64,000 bases of DNA from Geomonas sp. RF6 (GTDB taxonomy: Bacteria; Desulfobacterota; Desulfuromonadia; Geobacterales; Geobacteraceae): assembly GCF_021044625.1 (NCBI RefSeq), contig NZ_CP087999.1, positions 2,311,001-2,375,000 on the forward strand, in the 5' to 3' direction. The position numbers and the translations under genes are program-made. The notes beneath the pieces were generated by a model that did not search any database, had not been told where the DNA came from, and saw only the letters and a list, made by a program, of their open reading frames with translations. This document shows positions 47,168 to 60,644 of the stretch, piece by piece. Numbering within the stretch: the first letter of the stretch is position 1; every line of letters begins with the position of its first letter.

Positions 47168-47815
47168 ATGGCCATCAAGGTGCTGCTTGTCGACGACCAC
47201 AGACTGGTCAGGGAAGGGGTTAGAAGAATACTCGAGGGTGAGCCCTCCATCGAGGTCGTCGGTGAGGCCGACACTGGACGTCTCGCCGTCAGCATGGCAA
47301 AGGAGCTCGGCTCGGGAGTCGTCCTCATGGATCTCTCCATGCCCGATATGAACGGCATAGACGCTATTCGCCAGATCTCCGCCGACGCTCCCGACGTCCG
47401 CTGCGTCGTCCTCTCCATGCACTCCACACCGCGCTTTGTCACGGAGGCAATCGGCGCCGGGGCGAAGGGGTATCTCCTGAAGGACTCGGCGGGAAAGGAG
47501 CTGATGGAGGCGATACGCGCCGTCGCTCGCGACACCGTCTACTTGAGCCCCGCCATCGCCGGTGTCATCGTCCATGACTATCATCGGCGCTTCTCCAGCG
47601 CGGCGCCGGTGGAGGAGCCGGTCATCTCGGCCAGAGAGCGGCAGGTACTCCAGGCGTACGCGGAAGGGAAGAACACGAAGGAGATAGCCTACCACCTCGG
47701 GCTCAGCATCAAGACGATCGAGTCGCACCGCGCTCAGATCATGAAAAAGCTTGGGCTACGCACGGTAGCAGACATGGTCAGATACGCCATCCGCGAAGGA
47801 ATCATCTCCCTCTAA
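47168..47815 (+). CDS. NarL/FixJ family response regulator
   Basis: The 215-residue protein has a receiver (D9 D10, D54 in LMDLSMP, S82 in LSMHS, K104 in YLLKDS) and a C-terminal LuxR-type helix-turn-helix: SARERQVLQAYAEGKNTKEIA and the SIKTIESHRAQIMKKLG recognition helix. No sensor kinase is adjacent. It shares layout with the regulator at 48235-48879 but is clearly diverged. The ATG is preceded by AGGAG 13 bases away, a weak spacing. Confidence 0.92.
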   Translation: MAIKVLLVDDHRLVREGVRRILEGEPSIEVVGEADTGRLAVSMAKELGSGVVLMDLSMPDMNGIDAIRQISADAPDVRCVVLSMHSTPRFVTEAIGAGAKGYLLKDSAGKELMEAIRAVARDTVYLSPAIAGVIVHDYHRRFSSAAPVEEPVISARERQVLQAYAEGKNTKEIAYHLGLSIKTIESHRAQIMKKLGLRTVADMVRYAIREGIISL

Positions 47816-48234
47816 TAGTCCCGTCTTCGTCCACGCTGTTAATTCTGCACCTCCTCTTCCCCATGCCTCATCCTCAATCGCTCGGCTTCGCTTTTGCCAA
47901 TGCGTCACTTGGGGAATCCCTGATGCGCTCTAGGGGATTCAGGAAGTGACATCGCGGAATGGATGATACTGCACCCCGCTTCTTTTACCTACAATACGCT
48001 CACCACACCGTCCGCCCCACCTTTGCCCGACGCTGCACCCTCTCGTCTTCTAGGGGATTGCCGAAAGCGGCTCTAGGGTTTTGGCTGATATCCTTTTTGT
48101 TTATTTTTCAGTAACTTTACTTCTTCAGCAACACCGTCTGCTGCAACGGCGCCTCCACCTCAGTCCCCTACGGAACTTGTTCGAGGGGGAGTGTGCCGCA
48201 TGGCACGCAGGGTAGTCCCAACTATGGAGTGTGC
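47816..48234. promoter_or_regulatory. 419-base spacer with repeated TCTAGGGGATT
   Basis: TCTAGGGGATT occurs at 47929-47939 and again at 48049-48059, exactly 120 bases apart, and a shorter CTCTAGGG is at 48071-48078. All are in the region upstream of the second NarL-type gene and may be binding sites for that regulator or for the first. No gene was found. Confidence 0.4.
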
Positions 48235-48879
48235 ATGACAATAAAAGTAGCACTAGTAGATGACCACACGGTCGTGCGGGAGGGGCTGAAAGCCCTCCTT
48301 GGCAAGGCTGGAGATATAGAAGTAATCGCAGAAGCTGTCAACGGCAAGGAGGCCGTGGAAAAGGCGTGTGCCGCGCACGTGGTTATCATGGATCTCAACA
48401 TGCCGCAGATGAATGGTATCCAGGCGACGACCGCCCTCGCCTCAAAAAAACCTGAGGTGAAGGTCCTCTTTCTCTGCTCGGCGCAAGACCGCCCCAATGT
48501 GATGGCAGCACTGAAGGCGGGGGCGAAAGGATACCTCGGCAAGAGCTGTTGCGGCGACGAGCTCATCGACGCTGTGCGGGCTGTCCATTCCGGAAACGCC
48601 TACTTCGGGAAGAACATCACCGAGGTGCTGGTGGAGGATTACCGCAACCGTGTCGGTTCAGACGGCGAGGGTAGCACCATCCCCCTGTCACCGAGGGAGC
48701 AGGAAGTCCTGCAGGAGATCGCAGACGGCCGCAACACGAAGGATATCGCCTTTACCCTCGGGCTCTCGGTGAAGACGGTGGAGACGCACCGTCTGCGCAT
48801 CATGAAAAAGCTGGACCTGCACAGCCTGCAGGATCTGACGAAGTACGCCATCCGCGAAGGTATCTCCTCCCTCTGGTAA
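48235..48879 (+). CDS. NarL/FixJ family response regulator
   Basis: The 214-residue protein has the receiver aspartates D9 D10 and phosphoacceptor D53 (IMDLNMP). FLCSAQD has a serine at the usual Thr/Ser switch, and the lysine is in GYLGKSC, which is followed by an unusual CC pair. The C-terminus is a LuxR-type helix-turn-helix (SPREQEVLQEIADGRNTKDIA). ATG 48235 was chosen over 48193. It is a paralogue of the gene at 47168 and also lacks a kinase neighbour. Confidence 0.92.
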   Translation: MTIKVALVDDHTVVREGLKALLGKAGDIEVIAEAVNGKEAVEKACAAHVVIMDLNMPQMNGIQATTALASKKPEVKVLFLCSAQDRPNVMAALKAGAKGYLGKSCCGDELIDAVRAVHSGNAYFGKNITEVLVEDYRNRVGSDGEGSTIPLSPREQEVLQEIADGRNTKDIAFTLGLSVKTVETHRLRIMKKLDLHSLQDLTKYAIREGISSLW

Positions 48880-49707: not shown

Positions 49708-51627
49708 ATGGCACTCGTGAAGAAACAGATCAGCACCTCCTCCCGCACAGCTGGCGCCACCGAATCAAAGAGCTCTGCCGTGGCATCGCGTGAGGCGGAG
49801 GCGCAGCGCAAGAAGGCGCGCACCCTCGCGAAGCAGCAGCAGGCAGCCGAGCGCATCGCCGCCGCGACCGGGCAGCTGACGGCAGGGATCAACGAGGCGG
49901 CCAGTGCCGCAGAAGAGCTGAAGCGCTCCACTGACCAGATCGCCAAAGGTGCGGAAGAGGCCTCCGGCGCTGCACAGGAGTCCCTCGCCGCCTTCAAGCA
50001 GGTTTCCGTTGCCATCGCACGTCAGCTGCAAAACGCCGACATAGGCCAGGCGAAGGCCGAAACCATCCAGACCCTGGTCGGCAAGACGACTTCCGACATC
50101 AACCAGATGGTCACCACTGTCGGCGTCACCGCCCAGCGCCAGGCGGCCTCCGTGGAACTGGTGGCCGAGCTCGAGCAGCAGGCTGCAAACATCGGCGACA
50201 TCATCAAGGCGGTGGTCCGCATCGCCGACCAGACGAACCTCCTCGCGCTGAACGCAGCGATCGAGGCGGCACGCGCCGGGAAGCACGGGAAGGGGTTTGC
50301 CGTGGTCGCCGACGAGGTGAGGACGCTTGCCGAGACCTCCGAGAAGAGCGCGAAGCAGATCTCCGATCTCGTAGGGCAGATCCAGTCGGAGGTGAAAGCG
50401 ATCGCCGAGGGGATCGGCAACTCCGCGAAGACCGTCGAGGCGGAGGTGGAAAACGGCAAGACGATCACCGCCCAGCTGGAGCAGATCCGGGTCGACCTCG
50501 TGGAGATCGTGAAGGGCGTTTCGGAGATCGCCACCGGCGCCTCCCAGTCGAGCGTTGCGGCCGAGCAGGCGCTGAAGGGGTCCGAGGCGATCGCCGCGGC
50601 CGCCGAGGAGCAGTCCGCCGCCGCCGAGGAGTCGGCGAAGACGGTGGAGGAGCAGACCGCAGCACTCGCCGAGTGCGAGTCCACGGCCCAGAACCTCTCC
50701 GAGCTCGCCGAGGACCTGAAGAATTCCACCGATGTGGCAAAGGACGCCGAAGAAGTCGCTTCCTCCGCCGAGGAGCTCTCCAGCGCGGTCTCCGAGATCA
50801 ACCGCTCCGGTGCGCAGATCATGGCAGCGATCGAGCAGATCAGGAAGGGGGCCGAGGTGCAGTCCGCCGCCGCCGAGGAATCCGCCGCAGCCACGAGCCA
50901 GATCGAGAAGGGGGTGGAAATCGCCCAGGCACGCGCCACCGCGAGCAACGACAAGATCCTCGCCATCAAGGGGCTGCTGGAGACGAACAAGGCGTCCGTC
51001 GACGCGCTCATCACCGGGATCTCTTCCTCCGCCGAGGCATCGCGCGACAGCATAAAACAGATCAAGGCGCTGGAGCTGGTCTCCCGCCGCATCGACAAGA
51101 TCGTCGACGCCATCACCACCGTCTCCATCCAGACGAACATGCTCGCGGTAAACGGCTCCATCGAGGCGGCGCGCGCCGGTGAGTTCGGCAAGGGGTTCGT
51201 GGTGGTCGCCACCGACATCAGGAACCTCGCCCACGACTCCGCCGAGAACGCTGACCGCATCAAGGACCTCGTGAAAGCGGTGCAGGACCAGATCGGCCTC
51301 GTAGGCCGCGACCTGGACGAAATCGTCGCCACCACCCAGAACGAGGTGGAGAAGGCAAAGACCTCCACCGGCAACCTCATCCTCATCGAGCGTGACATAG
51401 CGGTCGTCGAGACCGGCGCGCAGGAGATACTGGCCGCCTCCAACGAGATCGCCGCAGCGGTCATCCAAGTGAAGCAGGGGGTGGAGCAGATCTCCGCCGC
51501 CGCCCAGGAGGCGGACAAGGCCGCCACGGAGGCCGCCGCCGCGAAGCAGCAGTCGCAGGGGGCGGAGGAGCTCGCCGCAGCCATCGAGGAAATCGCTTCC
51601 CTCGCCGACGAACTCCAGAGCGCCTAG
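49708..51627 (+). CDS. soluble chemoreceptor with two signalling tips
   Basis: The 639-residue coiled-coil protein has no membrane helix and no ligand domain. It contains two separate kinase-control hairpin tips: residues 170-195 ([20 protein letters not shown]) and 471-496 ([20 protein letters not shown]). Each is flanked by long heptad helices with Glu/Ala-rich methylation-like sites. Most receptors have one tip; the double form has been grouped as class 40+24H in receptor surveys (recalled). It is the first gene of the cheW-cheB-cheR-cheA operon and probably its input. Confidence 0.9.
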
Positions 51628-51643
51628 ACAGGAGCCAACAAAA

Positions 51644-53200
51644 ATGACGACAGATAATCTGGAAGCACAACAGGGGGTCCTCGGCGACGAGGGTCTCGAA
51701 GCCGAGGAGAGCGACACCCGCCAGTTCGTAACCTTCATCGCGGGTGACGAGGTCTTCGCGGTCGACATGGCTCCGGTGCAGGAAATCATCAGGGTGCCTG
51801 AGGTGGTGAAGGTCCCCCTGGCGCCGCACACCCTGGAGGGGCTCGCCAACCTGCGCGGCAAGGTCCTCCCCATCATCTCGCTCCGACGCGTCTTCGGCTT
51901 CGACGAATGCGCGTACAACGACTCCACCCGCGCCGTGGTGATCGACATGGGGCAGCCGCTCGGGTTCGTGGTGGACAGGGTGGCAAGCGTGGTCGGCGTG
52001 GAGCCCTCGAAGATCGAAGGGGTCGACTCCATCCGCAGCACGGTGAACACCGAGCTCCTCTCCGGCCTCATCAAGGATGTCGGCGGGCACGCCATGATCA
52101 TGGTCCTCGACTTCACGAAGCTGATCGCCCAGGAGTTTGCCGACATCGCGGCCGCCGCCAGAAACTCCGGGATCTCTTCCGGACGTTCCGAGACGAGCGA
52201 GGCGGACGACGAGGACAACAGCGACGAGCTGCAGCTGGTGAGCTTCGAGGTGGCGCAGCAGGAGTACGCCATGCCGATCGAGGACGTGCAGGAGATCGTG
52301 CAGATCCCCGAGGAGATCATTCACGTCCCCCACTCGGCGCCGCACGTCATGGGGATCATGACGCTGAGAAACCGGCTCCTGCCGCTGGTGAACCTGCGCC
52401 GCATGTTCGACCTGCCGGCGAGGGACGACGACGACCGCAGCCGGGTCGTGGTGGTCGCACTCGGATCGGACTCCGTCGGAATCGTCATGGACAGCGTGAA
52501 CGAAGTCCTCAGGGTGGCGAAATCGGATGTCGATCCGATGCCGGGGCTCTTGGCGCAGGACGGGGATCTCGCCGACATCTCCGAGATCTGCAGGCTGGAG
52601 AAGGGGAAGCGTCTCGTCTCCATCATCTCCGCCGGCAATCTCTTCAAACATTCCGGCGTGAAGGAGGCGCTTTCCACCGTGGGGAAAATGGAGCAGAAAG
52701 AGAGCGGTGAAACGGATGTCGATCTGGAGGAGGAGAACACCGACGACGAGCAGGTGGTGGTGTTCCGGCTCGACAAGGAAGAGTTCGGGGTGCCGATCGA
52801 CAGCGTGCAGGAGATCGTGCGGGTTCCGGAGGAACTGACCCGCGTGCCGAAGGCGCCTTCCTTCGTGGAGGGGGTGATCAATCTCCGCGGCGCAGTCCTT
52901 CCGGTCGTCGACCTGAGAAGGCGGCTGGGGATGCCCTCGGTGGAGCGCTCCGACCGGCAGCGCGTCATGGTCTTCCTCATCGAGGGGCTGCGGACCGGTT
53001 TTATCGTCGACTCCGTCGCCGAGGTCCTGATGATCCACAAGGCCGCGATCGAGCCCGCGCCGCAGCTCTCCAACGAGCAGGCAAAGCTCCTGGCGCGCAT
53101 GGCGAACCTGGAGAAGCAAAAGAGGATGATCCAGCTTTTAGAGCCCTCCAACCTCATCGAGGTGAAGGACCGGGCAGGGCTCGCCAGGCTGGCAGCGTAG
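51644..53200 (+). CDS. triple CheW-domain coupling protein
   Basis: The 518-residue protein has three CheW domains, at about 26-165, 210-345 and 380-515. Each shows the pattern FAVDMAPVQEIIRVPEV, a GLANLRGKVLPIISL or GVINLRGAVLPVVDL strand and a V-strand such as GFVVDRVASV. Acidic linkers (EADDEDNSDE) separate them. CheW links receptors to CheA, so a trivalent coupler may bridge several receptor tips or kinases. It begins 16 bases after the receptor stop. Confidence 0.93.
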   Translation: MTTDNLEAQQGVLGDEGLEAEESDTRQFVTFIAGDEVFAVDMAPVQEIIRVPEVVKVPLAPHTLEGLANLRGKVLPIISLRRVFGFDECAYNDSTRAVVIDMGQPLGFVVDRVASVVGVEPSKIEGVDSIRSTVNTELLSGLIKDVGGHAMIMVLDFTKLIAQEFADIAAAARNSGISSGRSETSEADDEDNSDELQLVSFEVAQQEYAMPIEDVQEIVQIPEEIIHVPHSAPHVMGIMTLRNRLLPLVNLRRMFDLPARDDDDRSRVVVVALGSDSVGIVMDSVNEVLRVAKSDVDPMPGLLAQDGDLADISEICRLEKGKRLVSIISAGNLFKHSGVKEALSTVGKMEQKESGETDVDLEEENTDDEQVVVFRLDKEEFGVPIDSVQEIVRVPEELTRVPKAPSFVEGVINLRGAVLPVVDLRRRLGMPSVERSDRQRVMVFLIEGLRTGFIVDSVAEVLMIHKAAIEPAPQLSNEQAKLLARMANLEKQKRMIQLLEPSNLIEVKDRAGLARLAA

Positions 53201-53456: not shown

Positions 53457-54521
53457 ATGATCAAGCTACTCATCGTGGACGATTCGGCGCTGATGCGGCG
53501 CCATCTGAACGGCCTCTTCCAGGCGGAAGGGGACTTCATCATAGAGCAGGCTCACAACGGCAAGGAGGCGGTGGAGGCAAACCGCAACTTCCAGCCGGAC
53601 GTGGTGACCCTCGACATCAACATGCCGGAGATGGACGGCATCACCGCCCTATCCCTCCTCATGGCGGAGCGGGCGGTGCCGGTGGTCATGGTCTCCTCCC
53701 TCACCGAAAAGGGGGCGCTCGCCACCTTCGAGGCGATGCACCTCGGCGCGGTGGACTACGTCACGAAGCCGGGGGGGACGATCTCCCTTAACATCAACGA
53801 GATCGGCGTAGAGCTCGTCGCCAAGGTCCGCGCCGCGGCGAAGGCGAAGCTCAAGGGGAACAAGGTGAAGGGGCTCGCGCAGCGGCTGCGCGAGGAACGG
53901 GAAAAGCCGGTGCAGAGGGCACCGTCCCCGCGCCGCGCACCGGTGCGCGACGGCATCGTCCTCGTCGGTGTCTCCACCGGCGGCCCCCGCACGCTGGAGG
54001 ACATCCTCCCCCATCTGCCGCACGACTTCCCCTGGCCGATCCTGGTGGCGCAGCACATGCCCCCGGCCTTCACCCGCCCCTTCGCGGACCGCATGAACAG
54101 CATGTGCAACCTCACAGTCGTGGAGGCGGCCCAGCCGATGCCGGTGGAGCCGGGGCATGTGTATATCGGCAAGGGTGGCGCGGACATGGTGCTGGGGCAG
54201 CGTAACGGCAAGCTGGCGGTGCTGGCGAAGCCGGAGAACAAGAGCTACTTGTGGCATCCCTCCGTGGAGCTCCTCGGGCGCACGGCGCTGGAGCAGTGCG
54301 ACCCCTCCCACATCGTCGCCGTCATGCTGACCGGGATGGGGCACGACGGGGCGGACGCCTTCGCGGAGATAAAGAAGCGCGGCGGGCGCACCATCGCGGA
54401 GGCGGAATCGTCCGCCGTCGTCTTCGGGATGCCCGCGGAACTTATAAAGCGGGGTGGGGCCGGAGTGGTCCTCACCTCGGACAGGATCGCCTCCCAGCTC
54501 ACGAGCTGGGCGGGATGCTAG
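53457..54521 (+). CDS. cheB: chemotaxis protein-glutamate methylesterase CheB
   Basis: The 354-residue protein has an N-terminal receiver (D8 D9, D54 in TLDINMP) and a C-terminal methylesterase. The catalytic triad is S in GVSTGGP (about 171), H in AQHMPP (about 197) and D in GMGHDGADA (about 293). It deamidates or demethylates receptor glutamates, opposing CheR. It is transcribed with the HEAT-repeat gene nine bases downstream. Confidence 0.95.
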   Translation: MIKLLIVDDSALMRRHLNGLFQAEGDFIIEQAHNGKEAVEANRNFQPDVVTLDINMPEMDGITALSLLMAERAVPVVMVSSLTEKGALATFEAMHLGAVDYVTKPGGTISLNINEIGVELVAKVRAAAKAKLKGNKVKGLAQRLREEREKPVQRAPSPRRAPVRDGIVLVGVSTGGPRTLEDILPHLPHDFPWPILVAQHMPPAFTRPFADRMNSMCNLTVVEAAQPMPVEPGHVYIGKGGADMVLGQRNGKLAVLAKPENKSYLWHPSVELLGRTALEQCDPSHIVAVMLTGMGHDGADAFAEIKKRGGRTIAEAESSAVVFGMPAELIKRGGAGVVLTSDRIASQLTSWAGC

Positions 54522-54530
54522 GGAGGCGTC

Positions 54531-55154
54531 ATGGCGCTGGTAAAAAAGGGTGCTGCAGAAGGAAGTCAGCCGGAGAAGCGGAAACGGGAGCGGGAGTGTC
54601 CCGACCTGGCGGCGCAGCTTTGCGACAGCGATCCGGTCGCCAGGCGCTGGGCCGCAAAGGACATCGTCGGCTGTCCCGACGCCTCCGCAACCCTCGTGGA
54701 GCAGCTCTGGCGGGAGGAGGAGCATTCGGTGCGGGAGGTCATCCTCACCACCCTTACCCGGATCGGCGACGAGTATGCGGTGTCGGCGCTCGTGCAGTGC
54801 CTGAGAAGCGAGGACGCTGCCCTGCGCAACGAGGCGATCGAGGCGATGAAGCTCCTCCCGCTGGAGGTCGCCCCCATCATGGGGAGGCTTCTCTCCGACG
54901 ACGATCCGGATGTGCGCATCTTTGCCGTCAACATCCTAGAGTCGCTGCGCCACGCCTCTGTGGAGCGGTGGCTCATCGACGTCATCGAGCGCGACCTCCA
55001 CGTGAACGTCTGCGCCACCGCTGTCGACCTCCTCGGAGAGGTCGGGACACCTGCCTCCCGGGGGGCACTGGAGAGTCTGAAGGCGCGTTTTCCCGAGGAG
55101 CCCTACATCCGTTTTGCGGCAGACATCGCCCTGAAGCGCATTTGTCCCAACTGA
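54531..55154 (+). CDS. HEAT-repeat protein in the chemosensory operon
   Basis: The 207-residue protein has five to six HEAT-type helical repeats (RWAAKDIVGC, SVREVILTTLTRIGDEYAVSAL, ALRNEAIEAMKLLP, DVRIFAVNILESL, VCATAVDLLGEVG). HEAT proteins serve as binding scaffolds. It lies between cheB and cheR with gaps of nine and six bases, so it is likely a dedicated adaptor. The start follows GGGAGGCGTC. Confidence 0.85.
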   Translation: MALVKKGAAEGSQPEKRKRERECPDLAAQLCDSDPVARRWAAKDIVGCPDASATLVEQLWREEEHSVREVILTTLTRIGDEYAVSALVQCLRSEDAALRNEAIEAMKLLPLEVAPIMGRLLSDDDPDVRIFAVNILESLRHASVERWLIDVIERDLHVNVCATAVDLLGEVGTPASRGALESLKARFPEEPYIRFAADIALKRICPN

Positions 55155-55160
55155 GGCGCC

Positions 55161-56003
55161 ATGGCAGAGATAACTATAGGCAAGGAAGACTTCCTGAAGT
55201 TCCGGGAGTTCTTCTATCGCAAGACCGGCATCCTCTTCGACGACTCCAAGCGCTACTTCGTCGACAGGCGCCTCATCGAGCGGATAGAGGCGACGGACTC
55301 AGGTTCGTTCCGCAACTACTTCATGATGCTGCGCTTCGAGGTCTCCGGCAGCGAGGTCCAGACCCTCACCAACCTGATGACTGTGAACGAGACCTACTTC
55401 TTCCGCGAGGAGTACCAGTTCAAGTGCCTGGTGAACTCCATGCTGCCGGAGCTGGTGAAGCACAAGAAGGATGACGCCCCGATCCGGATCTGGTCCGTTC
55501 CCTCCTCCTCGGGGGAGGAGCCGTACTCCATTGCCATGTATCTCCTGGAGTTCTGGCCCGGGATCCACGAGTGGGACGTGGAGATCATCTCCTCGGACAT
55601 AGACACGGACATCCTCTCTCTCGCGCGGCGCGGCTGCTACTCGAGCCGCTCCGTGCAGCACCTCCCGAAGAGCCTCCTGGAGAAGTATTTCAGGAAGGAA
55701 AAGGGGGAGTACCTGATCTGCGACGAGCTGAAGGAGGCGGTGGAGTTCACGCGGGTGAACCTCATGAATGCCGCGGACGTGCGCGGCTACCGCGACTTCG
55801 ACGTCATCTTCTGCCGCAATCTCCTCATCTACTTCGACGACCTGTCGCGCCGCCAGGCGGCCGACACCTTCTTCGACGCCTTGCGCCCCGGCGGATTCCT
55901 CTGCCTCGGGCACTCCGAGTCGATGAGCCGCATCTCATCCCTGTACAAGGCACGGAAGTTTCCGGAAACGGTCGTGTACCAAAAATCCCCGGAGGGTCGA
56001 TGA
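55161..56003 (+). CDS. cheR: chemotaxis protein methyltransferase CheR
   Basis: The 280-residue enzyme uses SAM to methylate glutamates of the receptors. It has a helical CheR_N domain and a Rossmann domain with the SAM loop IWSVPSSSGEEPYSIAM (about 112-128), ISSDIDTDIL and the FCRNLLIYFD segment. It lacks the pentapeptide-binding beta-subdomain extension of tethered CheR. Its stop overlaps the next ATG. Confidence 0.95.
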   Translation: MAEITIGKEDFLKFREFFYRKTGILFDDSKRYFVDRRLIERIEATDSGSFRNYFMMLRFEVSGSEVQTLTNLMTVNETYFFREEYQFKCLVNSMLPELVKHKKDDAPIRIWSVPSSSGEEPYSIAMYLLEFWPGIHEWDVEIISSDIDTDILSLARRGCYSSRSVQHLPKSLLEKYFRKEKGEYLICDELKEAVEFTRVNLMNAADVRGYRDFDVIFCRNLLIYFDDLSRRQAADTFFDALRPGGFLCLGHSESMSRISSLYKARKFPETVVYQKSPEGR

Positions 56004-56374
56004 AAAGGATCCTGATCATAGATGACGCCGCCACGGTGCGGATGTATTACCGGTCGATCCTCGAGGAGGGCGGCTACCACGTGGTGGAGGCGGTGAACGG
56101 CATCGAGGCGATGGAGAAGGCGCTGCAGGGGAGCTTCGATCTGTACATCGTGGATATCAATATGCCGAAGCAGGACGGCTACGGCTTCCTGACAGACCTG
56201 CGCAGCCGCGAGGAGCTCCACCAGACCCCGGCGCTCATGGTCTCCACAGAGGCGAAGCCGACCGACAGGAAGCGCGCCTACGTCTGCGGCGCCAACCTGT
56301 ACCTCCTGAAGCCGGTGAAGCCGGAGGAGCTCCTCGTCAACACGCGGATTCTTCTTGGGGAGGTGCAGCGATGA
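56000..56374 (+). CDS. CheY-like single-domain response regulator
   Basis: The 124-residue receiver has D8 D9, phosphoacceptor D52 (VDINMP), S81 (MVSTEA) and K103 (LLKPVK). It overlaps cheR by four bases at its start and cheA by four bases at its end, the ATGA coupling at both ends. It is a candidate output or phosphate sink for the CheA downstream. Confidence 0.92.
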   Translation: MKRILIIDDAATVRMYYRSILEEGGYHVVEAVNGIEAMEKALQGSFDLYIVDINMPKQDGYGFLTDLRSREELHQTPALMVSTEAKPTDRKRAYVCGANLYLLKPVKPEELLVNTRILLGEVQR

Positions 56375-58722
56375 ACCCGCTCCTCGAACAGTTCCTTTCC
56401 GAGTCGCGCGAGGCGCTGCAGGGGATCGGCGAGAAGCTCATGCAGCTGGAGAAGGATCCCGGCAGCACGCTCCTCATGACGGAGCTCTTCCGTATCGTGC
56501 ACACCCTGAAGGGGAACAGCGGCCTCTTCGACTTCCCCGAGCTCACCCGGGTCCTCCATGCCGGTGAGGACCTGATGGACGCGGTGCGCGACGGGAAGGT
56601 CGACTTCTCGCTGCAGCTCGCCGACCTCCTCCTCGATGCCATGGACTTCGTGGGGATGCTGTGCGACGAAATCGAGAGGGAAGGAAGCTACGGCCCTGCA
56701 TATGGCCCCGATTCCGCGCGCCTCTCCGAAATGCTGAGGCAGATGATCGGCGGGAGCGACGAGGGCGCCGCGGAGTGCTCCGCCGAGCAGGGGGCGGAAA
56801 AGGAAGGGGTAACCCTCCTGGACCTCCCGCAGGAGATGCGCGACGCCGCGCTCGGCGCTGCCGCATCCGGCGCCGCGCTGCACCTCATCACCTACACGCC
56901 TGTCGAGGAGTGCTTCTTCCAGGGGGACGACCCCTTCTACCAGGCGCGCCAGACCCCGGGGATCATCTTCGGGAAGATCGCCGCCAGGAAGGAATGGCCC
57001 CCGCTGGGGGAGCTCGACGCCTACAGCTGCCAGCTCGACTTCCACGTCCTCTCCAGCGCACCTCTCGAGGAGCTGCGGGAGTACTACCGCTACGTATCCG
57101 ACCAGCTGCACATCACGCCGGTGCGCCTGCTTGAGGAGAGGGGAGCGGGGAGCGCGGAGGAGGGAGACGATCCCCTCCTGCAGCGGGAGCGGGACGCCGC
57201 CTCCGTCATCATGGAGGTCCAGAAGGAGATCCTCTCCCTCCCCGACGACGTCTCGTACCTCGCCGGGCGGATCAGGGGGGCGGCAGCCTCTCTCCAGGGG
57301 TGCCTGCGCGCCACCGGCTCTGTCGACGCCCTCCCCGGGCTTGCCGCAGCCGCGGATGCCGCCGTGGCAGAGCTTTCCGCCGCTCCGCTGCAGCAGTGGC
57401 TCGATTGCCACCTCACCGGCGCTGCGGCAATGGTTTCCGCGGAGAGGGCGGCGGCCGCTCCTTCGGCGCCCGCTGCCGATGTGGTGCCGGACGGAGCTCC
57501 GGAGTCGGAGGTGAAATTCGGCCGCCGCGCCGAGGACAACCTGACCACCGCCCGCAGCATCAAGGTCGACCAGGAGAAGATCGACCGCCTGATGAACCTC
57601 ATAGGGGAGATGGTGGTGGCGAAAAATGCGCTGCCGTATCTCGCCACCCGAGCGGAGGCGCTCTTCGGGGTACGGGAGCTCTCCCGCGAGATCAAGGCGC
57701 AGTACGCGGTGATAAACCGCATCGCGGAGGAGATGCAGGACGCCATCATGCAGGTGCGCATGATGCCGGTCTCCTTCGTGTTCCAGCGCTTCCCCCGCCT
57801 GGTGCGCGACATCTCCAACAAGCTCGGGAAGAAGGTGAACCTGGTCCTCGAAGGGGAAGATACCGAGGCGGACAAGAACATCATCGAGTCCCTCGGCGAC
57901 CCGCTGGTGCACATAGTACGAAACAGCCTCGACCACGGCATCGAATCCCCCGAGGTGCGGACAGCGGCGGGGAAAGTGGCGACCGGAACGCTCACCATCA
58001 GGGCGACCCAGGAGTCGGACCGCGTCATCATCGAGATACGCGACGACGGCAAGGGGATCGATCCGGAGGTCATCAAGCGGAAGGCGTACGAGAAGGGGAT
58101 CCTCGACGAGGAGCAGCTGGAGCGGGTCACGGACCAGGAGGCGGTGAACCTCGTCTTCGCCCCCGGTTTCTCCACCGCGGACGCGGTCTCCGACCTCTCC
58201 GGCCGGGGCGTCGGGATGGATGTGGTGCGCACGGCGATAGAGAAGGTGAATGGCACCGTGCACCTGGAGAGCGAGAAGGGTAGAGGGACCCGCATCCGCA
58301 TCTCCCTCCCCCTCTCCATGGCGGTCACCAACGTCATGATCGTGGAGTCGAGCGGCCAGATCTTCGGGGTGCCGATGGACGCGGTGGTGGAAACGGTGCG
58401 GGTACCCGCGGGATCCATCAAAACGATCAAGAAGAGCATGGCTACCGTGCTGCGCGGCCGCATCGTCCCCCTGAAGGGGCTGAACGCCCTCCTTGGCGTC
58501 CCGGCGGAGCAAAAGAGGAACGAGGAGGGGGAGGTCGCCGTCCTGGTGGTCAATGTCGGCGACGAGGCGGTGGGGATCATCGTGGACGACTTCCACGAGA
58601 CGGTGGACATCATCCTGAAGCCGATGACGGGGATACTCTCCGGCCTCTGCGCCTATGCCGGGTCCGCTCTTCTCGGGGACGGATCGGTCCTTATGGTCCT
58701 CAATCTCAAGGAGGTGGTGTGA
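56371..58722 (+). CDS. cheA: chemotaxis histidine kinase CheA
   Basis: The 783-residue kinase has an N-terminal Hpt domain with H44 (VHTLKGNSGLFDF), an unusual middle region (110-350) with CFFQGDDPFYQARQTPG and ELREYYRYVSDQLHI, a dimerisation domain (KVDQEKIDRLMNLIGEM), an HATPase with N-box VHIVRNSLDHGIE, DDGKGID and GRGVGMD, and a C-terminal CheW-like domain (VPMDAVVETVRVP). It phosphorylates CheB and the CheY proteins. The middle region is not the standard P2 domain. Confidence 0.95.
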   Translation: MNPLLEQFLSESREALQGIGEKLMQLEKDPGSTLLMTELFRIVHTLKGNSGLFDFPELTRVLHAGEDLMDAVRDGKVDFSLQLADLLLDAMDFVGMLCDEIEREGSYGPAYGPDSARLSEMLRQMIGGSDEGAAECSAEQGAEKEGVTLLDLPQEMRDAALGAAASGAALHLITYTPVEECFFQGDDPFYQARQTPGIIFGKIAARKEWPPLGELDAYSCQLDFHVLSSAPLEELREYYRYVSDQLHITPVRLLEERGAGSAEEGDDPLLQRERDAASVIMEVQKEILSLPDDVSYLAGRIRGAAASLQGCLRATGSVDALPGLAAAADAAVAELSAAPLQQWLDCHLTGAAAMVSAERAAAAPSAPAADVVPDGAPESEVKFGRRAEDNLTTARSIKVDQEKIDRLMNLIGEMVVAKNALPYLATRAEALFGVRELSREIKAQYAVINRIAEEMQDAIMQVRMMPVSFVFQRFPRLVRDISNKLGKKVNLVLEGEDTEADKNIIESLGDPLVHIVRNSLDHGIESPEVRTAAGKVATGTLTIRATQESDRVIIEIRDDGKGIDPEVIKRKAYEKGILDEEQLERVTDQEAVNLVFAPGFSTADAVSDLSGRGVGMDVVRTAIEKVNGTVHLESEKGRGTRIRISLPLSMAVTNVMIVESSGQIFGVPMDAVVETVRVPAGSIKTIKKSMATVLRGRIVPLKGLNALLGVPAEQKRNEEGEVAVLVVNVGDEAVGIIVDDFHETVDIILKPMTGILSGLCAYAGSALLGDGSVLMVLNLKEVV

Positions 58723-58961
58723 TGGGGGTCGCATACAAGAGAAATAGCGCCGTCTTTAGCGACACGGTCGGAGCGGAAGAGGCGGAGACGCTCCTTGAGT
58801 GGCTCCAGAAGCACCCGAAGGGGAAGCTCGACCTCGCCGCCTGCACGCATCTGCATGCCGCCAACCTGCAGGTGCTGATGGCGGCGCGCCTGGCGATTCA
58901 CAAGTATCCGACGGACGAGTCTCTCGCCGCCTGGGTTAAAACCGCACTACATACGGCATAG
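58722..58961 (+). CDS. small STAS-like protein
   Basis: The 79-residue protein starts at ATG 58722, overlapping the cheA stop by one base; a GTG at 58719 is also possible. KLDLAACTHLHAANLQVLMAARLAIHKYP has the beta-alpha layout of a STAS-type fold around a conserved polar loop. It lacks a clear phosphorylatable serine (TH in place of DS). A role as a scaffold or phosphate-independent switch of the operon is possible. Confidence 0.6.
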   Translation: MGVAYKRNSAVFSDTVGAEEAETLLEWLQKHPKGKLDLAACTHLHAANLQVLMAARLAIHKYPTDESLAAWVKTALHTA

Positions 58962-58969
58962 GAGGGGAA

Positions 58970-59344
58970 ATGGCAAAGACGATCATGATAGTCGACGATT
59001 CGGCGCTTATGCGCACCAGCGTGAAGGCAAACCTGGAGCTCGGGGGGTACAAGGTGGAGTTCGCCGGCGACGGCGTGCAGGCGCTGAACCTCCTGAAGAC
59101 GGGGATAAAGCCCGATCTCATCATCACCGACATCAACATGCCGAATATGGGGGGGCTGGAGTTCATCAAGAACCTGAGGACCGTCGCGGGTTTCCGTTTC
59201 ACCCCCGTCCTTGTCCTCACTACCGAGAGCCAGCAGCAGAAGAAGGACGAAGCGAAGAAGCACGGGGCGACCGGGTGGCTGGTGAAGCCGATCGCCGGAC
59301 CCGACCTCATAAAGGTTATAAAGCAGGTTTTGCCGGGCGCCTAG
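58970..59344 (+). CDS. cheY: CheY response regulator
   Basis: The 124-residue receiver has D8 D9, phosphoacceptor D53 (ITDINMP), T83 (LTTESQ) and K105 (WLVKPI). It follows GGAGGGGAA. The spacing to the preceding gene is eight bases. No fused output exists, so it acts through protein contact, such as the flagellar switch or another partner. Confidence 0.94.
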
Positions 59345-59366: not shown

Positions 59367-60644
59367 GTGAGAAAAGTTGCCGTTCAGGCCGCCTGTTTTG
59401 ACATATCGTCCCTTTTGACGAAAAAGTGCCTCCTCCAGGGTGTCCTTTGCGTGGTGGCTGCTTCGGCTGCGGTCTGGTTCCTGGACGACCTGTGCTGCCG
59501 GCTGATCGACATCCCCCATCGCCTGGAGGTGGCGCTTCTCGCCCTCATGGTGTCGGCGTGCACCGCCATCATCCTGACCCTTATCTTCCGCAGGCAGCTC
59601 CTCCTCTTCGATACCTTCGCGCAGCACTCCTGGGCCAGCAGCTCCGACAGCCAGGCGAGGATCCGGGAACACCTGGACCAGACGGTATCGGACCTGCCGC
59701 AGTATACCGAGCTCCTCGGGGCACAGCTGCGGGAGGCGACGGCGGAGACGGAGACGGCGCTCCTCGGGGTGGTGGAGAGGATGGTGACGGTGCACCAGAA
59801 GGCATGTTTCCAGGTCGACCAGATCGGCTCCTCCTCGGAAAGGAGCAACGAGCTCATCCAGGTGACGCGGGATCAGATCAGGAAGAACAACCAGGTTATC
59901 AGGGCCCTCAATATCTTCTCCGAAACGCAGTCCGACCAGCTGAAGGACAACCTGAGCCGGATCCAGAGGCTCTCCGACGAGATGGAGCAGATGCGTCCCC
60001 TGGTAAACGACATCTCCGACATCGCCGACCGTACCAACATGCTCGCCCTCAACGCCGCGATAGAGGCGGCCCGCGCCGGGAACGCCGGGCGGGGATTCGC
60101 GGTCGTCGCCGACGAGGTGCGCCGGCTCTCGACGCAGACGAACAGGGCGGCAAACGAGATCGCCCACAGGATAACCACCGTGGCAAGGCAGGCGCAGACG
60201 GAAACCGACAATGCGCGAAAGCTCATCACTGAGGAGGAGGAATCGCAGAAGTTCAAGACGATGGCGGGGAACCTGGCGGATATCGAGGAGCGCTTCAAGA
60301 GCGCGGCCACCCACCTGGAGACCGTGATCCGCAGCATCGACGAGGCGAACCGGACGATCGTGGAGGAGGTATCCACCGTCTTGGGGGAGATCCAGTTCCA
60401 GGATGTAATGCGGCAACGGGTGGAGCATGTGAACGAGGGGCTCGATCAGCTGACCGCTCTGGCACGGGAGACGAGCCTCTGGCTCAGCGGTGGGGGAGAG
60501 GTGCCGGCAGTCCGCCTGAGCGATTGCATGGATGCCTTTGACGAGAAGTACGTCATGCAGGCGCAGCGGGAGACTCACACAGCGGTGCTGGGGGGAGTAA
60601 AGGGTGCGTCCTCGGCGCCGGTGCAGAAGATAGAGCTTTTCTGA
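59367..60644 (+). CDS. membrane methyl-accepting chemotaxis protein
   Basis: The 425-residue receptor starts at GTG 59367 after GGAGGAG. It has two membrane helices (about 20-40 and 53-75) with a very short loop between them, so it has no periplasmic ligand domain. The signalling tip is [21 protein letters not shown]. After the signalling helices a [19 protein letters not shown] segment occurs, as in receptors ending in a helical control module. It may sense membrane or redox state. The stop overlaps the next gene start (TGATG). Confidence 0.92.

Follow-up and report, generated by a model that had tools for sequence, protein, structure and literature searches.

F9-class chemosensory systems are marked by the combination of the receptor DosM with a triple CheW protein ('CheW3'), as in cluster I of Vibrio cholerae (PMC9321776, PMC7534058). 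The cytoplasmic array of this species has been described as a pair of hexagonal 12-nm lattices that face each other and consist of trimers of dimers (PMC3964821), with the baseplates 35 nm apart (PMC3964821; PMC7184735). CheA and the concatenated triple CheW are reported to form the two base plates, receptors are arranged as trimers of dimers in hexagonal arrays, and DosM, rod-shaped and extended, carries signalling domains at both ends and takes part in every other trimer (PMC7534058). The same cluster encodes VC1394, a 24H receptor with a transmembrane region, and the F9 array itself is said to be located entirely in the cytoplasm (PMC7534058). An F9 member in Rhodospirillum centenum is reported to control flagellar synthesis (PMC7184735).

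The stretch analysed here (the window) comprises 64,000 nt of the genome of Geomonas sp. RF6, a single 5.26-Mb contig. Pfam matches and a reading of the open reading frames reveal an operon-like run of ten genes, all on the + strand, headed by the genes for a soluble DosM-type receptor with two signalling hairpins (49708–51627; 639 aa, two MCPsignal stretches, whole-protein E 1.8e-62, no TM segment) and for CheW3, with three concatenated CheW domains (51644–53200; 518 aa, three CheW stretches, E 3e-98). They are followed by CheB (receiver and methylesterase; 53457–54521), a HEAT-repeat protein between CheB and CheR (HEAT_2; 54531–55154), CheR (55161–56003), a first CheY-like receiver (56000–56374), CheA (Hpt, dimerisation, HATPase and CheW; 56371–58722), an 80-aa STAS-like protein (58719–58961), a second CheY-like receiver (58970–59344) and a membrane-anchored one-tip receptor (59367–60644), which has an MCPsignal match and a strongly hydrophobic segment from about aa 55. 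These assignments are from Pfam, except that the first CheY was read from its ORF translation, a CheY homolog between CheR and CheA being the commonest gene order, and the 80-aa protein was recognised as an ORF, by a profile search of related loci and by STAS_2 matches in its relatives. An NCBIfam scan of six of the proteins gave no model above its cut-off, for CheA among 25 of the 47 families listed. Two NarL-type response regulators found by Pfam just 5′ of the cassette (47168–47815 and 48193–48879, + strand) are possible cassette regulators. The whole genome has 23 CheW-domain and 46 MCPsignal matches, showing that this run is one of several chemosensory systems in the organism.

Gene content, domain anatomy and homology make it very probable that this system belongs to the F9 class. 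The receptor has two signalling domains in tandem (two MCPsignal stretches with a spacing of 300 residues), is soluble and lacks a sensor domain; the coupler consists of three concatenated CheW domains; and cheA, cheY, cheR and cheB are in the same cluster. The pairing of a two-tip receptor with a triple CheW, which the sequence-only reading had singled out for its interest, is real, and it is not new, being the published signature of F9 (PMC9321776, PMC7534058). Geobacter, Desulfobacterota and deltaproteobacteria receive no mention in the main text of PMC9321776. The 'CheW3' of PMC5907407 is a different protein, and the multiple CheW domains within CheA described in PMC10542144 were set aside as an unrelated lead.

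Both of the kinase-control tips proposed from the sequence (aa 170–195 and 471–496) lie inside the two conserved hairpins of the receptor: tip 1, a canonical hairpin, at aa 170–212 (50215–50343, + strand) and tip 2 at aa 470–512 (51115–51243, + strand), exactly 300 residues later. Blocks aa 166–210 and 466–510 rank with the best-conserved parts of the protein (mean top-residue frequency 0.89–0.98 per block) in an alignment of 69 sequences including that of the window. In a 58-sequence alignment (the window plus 57 of 68 receptor references), mean pairwise identity is 0.92 for aa 165–212, 0.86 for aa 465–512 and 0.59 for each half. The usual tip motifs differ, QTNLLALNA in tip 1 and QTNMLAVNG in tip 2, and this difference together with the conservation indicates that the tips are distinct and both constrained. 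No TM segment was detected in the 639 aa, the highest 19-residue Kyte-Doolittle mean being 1.04, compared with 2.65 in the neighbouring membrane receptor, and Pfam found MCPsignal only and no sensor domain. Methylation-like EE motifs seem to be placed on opposite arms, at equal distance from each hairpin.

The distance between the tips, counted between equivalent residues, is constant: it is exactly 300 in 66 of the 67 loci scored from the best 80 of 583 relatives (see below), and again in 18 of 18 scored frames of a second locus set and the window. The lone exception, a spacing of 265 in L144, is an artefact of N-runs in the assembly. Five of the 72 paired loci were left unscored, two of them truncated (L153, L176) and three with one tip missed by the motif (L185, L188, L199), as was the L110 frame of the second locus set, in which the motif also missed one tip. 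L185, L188 and L199 are included in the alignment, ungapped between the tips, and no indels are present between the tips in any of the 58 aligned sequences.

An AF2 monomer model of the receptor (mean pLDDT 89.4, pTM 0.64) predicts helices at aa 20–339, 343–608 and 611–638. The first break, aa 340–342 (50725–50733, + strand), is two to four residues from the midpoint of the hairpins (aa 338). The heptad phase varies little inside either half; between windows centred at aa 321 and 366 it slips by about one residue, so that 300 residues correspond to 43 heptads less one residue; a second, terminal phase shift at about aa 606–621 coincides with the second predicted break (aa 609–610). Half 1 of the receptor matches the Thermotoga maritima receptor 2CH7, a 44H receptor, across 287 residues on both sides. 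A PDB fold search superimposed the AF2 model on 2CH7 at 3.1 Å over 298 columns, a likeness that applies to one half only. Half 2 has its hairpin near aa 488, and its arms, back to aa 339 and onwards to aa 639, are each about 150 residues long (C-terminal arm about 151), giving both halves around 22 heptads per arm. The sequence-only reading had pointed to the two-tip 40+24H receptors of delta-group bacteria, whose halves have 20 and 12 heptads per arm. Receptors of that class also carry two signalling hairpins per chain, but here both halves are of about 44H length: half 1 matches 2CH7 as above, and the C-terminal arm of half 2 is about 151 residues, not about 84. If this definition of the class is right, these arm lengths rule out membership.

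The second gene had been read as a fusion of three CheW domains, which is borne out by three Pfam CheW stretches (PF01584, + strand) and by three beta-rich domains in its AF2 model. Domain 1 lies at 51722–52132 (104.5 bits), domain 2 at 52232–52651 (113.3 bits) and domain 3 at 52751–53161 (130.9 bits). Domain 3 is the most conserved, with a mean pairwise identity of 0.60, while domains 1 and 2 have 0.53 and 0.54, in an alignment of 58 sequences (the window plus 57 of 70 CheW3 references). Across species the domains group by position, the best clades holding 52 of 58 sequences for domain 1, 58 of 58 for domain 2 and 56 of 58 for domain 3; the sequences outside the best domain-1 and domain-3 clades are from Microvirga and Clostridium, and the domain-2 clade also takes in domain 2 of two additional triple CheW proteins. 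This clustering by position indicates that the triplication is old and took place before the cassette spread. In the locus of Clostridium sp. DSM 17811 there is a second triple CheW (L205, 18507–20114, + strand).

Residues E38 and R62 of Escherichia coli CheW have a role in coupling. Among the 58 sequences, the equivalent of E38 is kept in 97, 100 and 100% of domains 1, 2 and 3, and that of R62 in 100% of all three; domain 2 has mostly T at the position of N60 (69%) and is variable at that of G63. The linkers between the domains have low confidence in the AF2 model and median lengths of 30 and 32 residues, and given these two properties a single CheW3 chain could span neighbouring ring seats. 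Domain 2 is also the site at which some relatives carry a zinc-binding CZB domain inside the middle CheW, at aa 270–332 in L122 (E 3.8e-10) and at aa 246–307 in L125 (E 4e-6, just below the Pfam cut-off). No CZB match was obtained in the split domain 2 of L228 and L229, and none by Pfam in the CheW3 of the window. Where an insertion splits domain 2, a locus may score as four CheW stretches ('W4') though it has three domains.

A survey of co-occurrence, proposed in the sequence-only reading, found the two-tip receptor and the triple CheW to be linked and conserved. The phylum sample comprised 395 genomes, including that of the window, searched at thresholds of E 1e-34 for CheW3 and E 1e-45 for the receptor; three candidates were scored per genome, and further pairs may be missed. 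At these thresholds, CheW3 is present in 19 genomes and the receptor in 18, with 17 shared, so that both occur in 17, the triple CheW alone in two and the receptor alone in one (p ~1e-26). The genome with the receptor and a CheW3 below threshold (G320) was read directly, and a triple CheW with its middle domain split by an insertion adjoins the receptor. Counted with this reading, both genes occur in 18 genomes, the triple CheW alone in two and the receptor alone in none (Fisher p ~3e-29, 395 genomes), and chance pairing is ruled out by these counts. In all 18 receptor genomes of the phylum sample the triple CheW adjoins the receptor, which in G241 and G291 is cut by a contig end so that one tip is visible.

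The association applies to the receptor with a spacing of 300 and CheW3, and does not extend to every two-tip receptor. The genome of the window itself encodes a second one (L230, 9860–11647, − strand; a 596-aa frame with a spacing of about 268) beside CheA, and no multi-CheW gene is present near it in the 20 kb read. Two genomes (G079 and G116, loci L118 and L119) carry a distant triple CheW of 31–32% identity together with cheB, cheR and a long HEAT protein; no tip was seen in the stretch read, and no receptor match at E 1e-45. These two loci are a DosM-less variant, which shows that CheW3 has no strict requirement for DosM.

A scan of named genomes with the CheW3 alignment confirmed 583 relatives, and the counts given here use the best 80 of the 583, so that adjacency among them is adjacency among close relatives. 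They include many gamma-, beta- and alphaproteobacteria, and records titled Acidobacteriaceae, Desulfobulbaceae, Clostridium, Fervidicola and others. A two-tip receptor is encoded directly upstream of CheW3 in 72 of these 80 loci. Five of the other eight start at a contig end or close to one (L146, L158, L191, L197 and L206), and three have interrupted frames: CheW3 in L187, both genes in L201, and the receptor in L168, where no more than its second half was seen. The two locus sets overlap, L163, L185 and L188 lying on the same contigs as L110, L116 and L113.

The recurrent gene order among the best 80 of 583 is DosM-CheW3-CheB-HEAT-CheR-CheY-CheA-CheY-receptor. Plasmids of Methylosinus trichosporium OB3b and Azospirillum brasilense show the same order in their annotations (receptor, CheW, CheB, HEAT, CheR, response regulator, CheA, small protein), both without the terminal one-tip receptor and with the final response regulator encoded on the opposite strand; no Vibrio record was among the 22 plasmid matches. 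Nearer to the window, only one (G035) of 57 relatives, 34 of the same family and 23 of the same order, has clear orthologs of both genes, adjacent and with 83% and 78% identity. One other pair among 57 family and order relatives agrees with the published distribution of F9, which is sporadic and covers 2% of species. The pair is a conserved, scattered cassette, adjacent in several bacterial phyla.

Two further genes of the run are widely retained. The HEAT-repeat gene was matched in 73 of the 80 F9 loci (best 80 of 583); CheY homologs in these loci were found with the second CheY as query, per-locus counts include other receptors and regulators, and the HEAT count alone is used. The HEAT protein is fused to a receiver domain in L228 and has nine HEAT stretches in L118. 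Among the literature records covered for HEAT repeats with CheW, CheB or chemosensory systems, a single archaeal paper was found.

The gene for the 80-aa protein, between CheA and the second CheY, gave a profile match in 67 of the 80 F9 loci (best 80 of 583), and the protein is also present in 10 of 20 loci of the second locus set by profile search. Nine of the 13 loci without a match also lack a CheA that could be found, and the other four (L198, L205, L207 and L208) are presumably Firmicutes. In the OB3b and A. brasilense plasmid annotations it is a 'hypothetical protein'. Of 45 members of the family, 25 match STAS_2 at E 0.1 or better (best 2.6e-6), with the copy of the window below the Pfam cut-off (16.9 versus 29.2 bits). 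A PDB profile search of the protein gave one match at chance level (E 0.4), so that the STAS assignment comes from Pfam only.

The suggestion of a cytoplasmic array, made from the sequence, is supported by homology to the V. cholerae F9 system. The accompanying suggestion of a geometry other than hexagonal is contradicted for V. cholerae, the best-studied member, which has an ordinary hexagonal 12-nm lattice (PMC3964821), and a non-hexagonal lattice is rejected on this published tomography of the same class. By analogy, we infer that this organism builds the same two-layered array as V. cholerae. The two hairpins of DosM, in tandem and each of about 44H length, would build a single long rod that ends in a kinase-control tip on either side, each end inserting into its own CheA/CheW baseplate. 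The two baseplates would be kept a set distance apart in this way, as the two layers of a flat cytoplasmic array. The exact spacing of 300 agrees with a strut that has to span the two sheets, and DosM most likely pins two CheA/CheW3 sheets. CheW3 would be the coupler of the array itself, its three tethered domains filling CheW ring positions and stabilising each sheet, although which positions these are we can only infer. Since DosM is without a sensor domain, input would have to come from other receptors, probably soluble ones that join the same array, while CheR, CheB and the two CheY proteins would provide adaptation and output, the latter perhaps directed at flagellar synthesis, motility or a stress response. 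It is a doubtful further step to give the CheW3 domains fixed ring addresses (the three CheW seats in a CheA/CheW ring, or half the seats in a CheW-only one), which would make the baseplate covalently stitched with a built-in stoichiometry, and to regard the HEAT and STAS-like proteins as unrecognised parts of the array or of adaptation.

The helix rise is about 0.149 nm per residue, and a straight helical path of 300 residues would be about 45 nm long, which exceeds the 35 nm published for the V. cholerae baseplate gap. The difference may be due to baseplate density inside the tips, to a shorter V. cholerae receptor, or to a bend of the rod near aa 340. The same excess would be avoided if the receptor folded back near aa 340–342, with the tips pointing the same way and one chain mimicking a receptor dimer in a single-layer array. 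Such a fold-back would agree with the position of the AF2 helix break close to the midpoint at aa 338 and with the heptad slip of about one residue there; however, a kink in a straight rod would produce the same break, and the AF2 model is of a monomer and is read as secondary structure. The fold-back is considered very unlikely.

The membrane-anchored receptor (59367–60644) encoded in the same run, and represented after CheY by a homolog in many of the best 80 of 583 loci, would suit an F9-type gene set that now operates without a cytoplasmic array and is docked on the membrane through this protein. The same arrangement is found in V. cholerae (VC1394), but the F9 array of that species is reported to be purely cytoplasmic (PMC7534058). 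Membrane docking is accordingly considered very improbable.

A 40+24H receptor that feeds a conventional single-layer array, next to a triple CheW fused by coincidence, would account for the two-tip receptor of another spacing without a multi-CheW neighbour in the same genome (L230), but has next to no likelihood given arms of about 22 heptads in both halves, a tip spacing fixed at 300, and the adjacency of triple CheW and receptor throughout the receptor genomes of the phylum and in most of the best 80 of 583 loci.

Under the preferred reading, in which DosM spans two baseplates, a suspected new array geometry becomes a recognised class, F9, that runs through the phylum as a sporadic, mostly intact cassette. 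What remains of modest interest is the 300-residue ruler, the antiquity of the triplication and the conservation of two extra genes (HEAT and STAS-like). Together with the midpoint slip, the ruler and the triplication make two questions testable, namely how the gap between baseplates is set and why a triple CheW is needed.

Among known systems, CheW-CZB proteins are a described group in which CZB is joined to CheW (PMC8262984), as in L122 and L125, and the CheW3 of the window differs from them in having no CZB. V. cholerae cluster I (DosM VC1403, triple CheW VC1402, CheA VC1397) resembles the window in its sensorless double-tip receptor and triple CheW, and likewise contains cheA, cheY, cheR, cheB and a membrane-bound receptor with one tip; the one-tip receptor of the window (59367–60644) is placed like VC1394 (PMC7534058). 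The window is from another phylum, and the likeness is to the published description of a system whose array was imaged in V. cholerae. The cytoplasmic cluster of Rhodobacter sphaeroides resembles F9 in that soluble receptors are sandwiched between two baseplates (PMC3964821), but its arrays are curved, unlike the flat F9 array.
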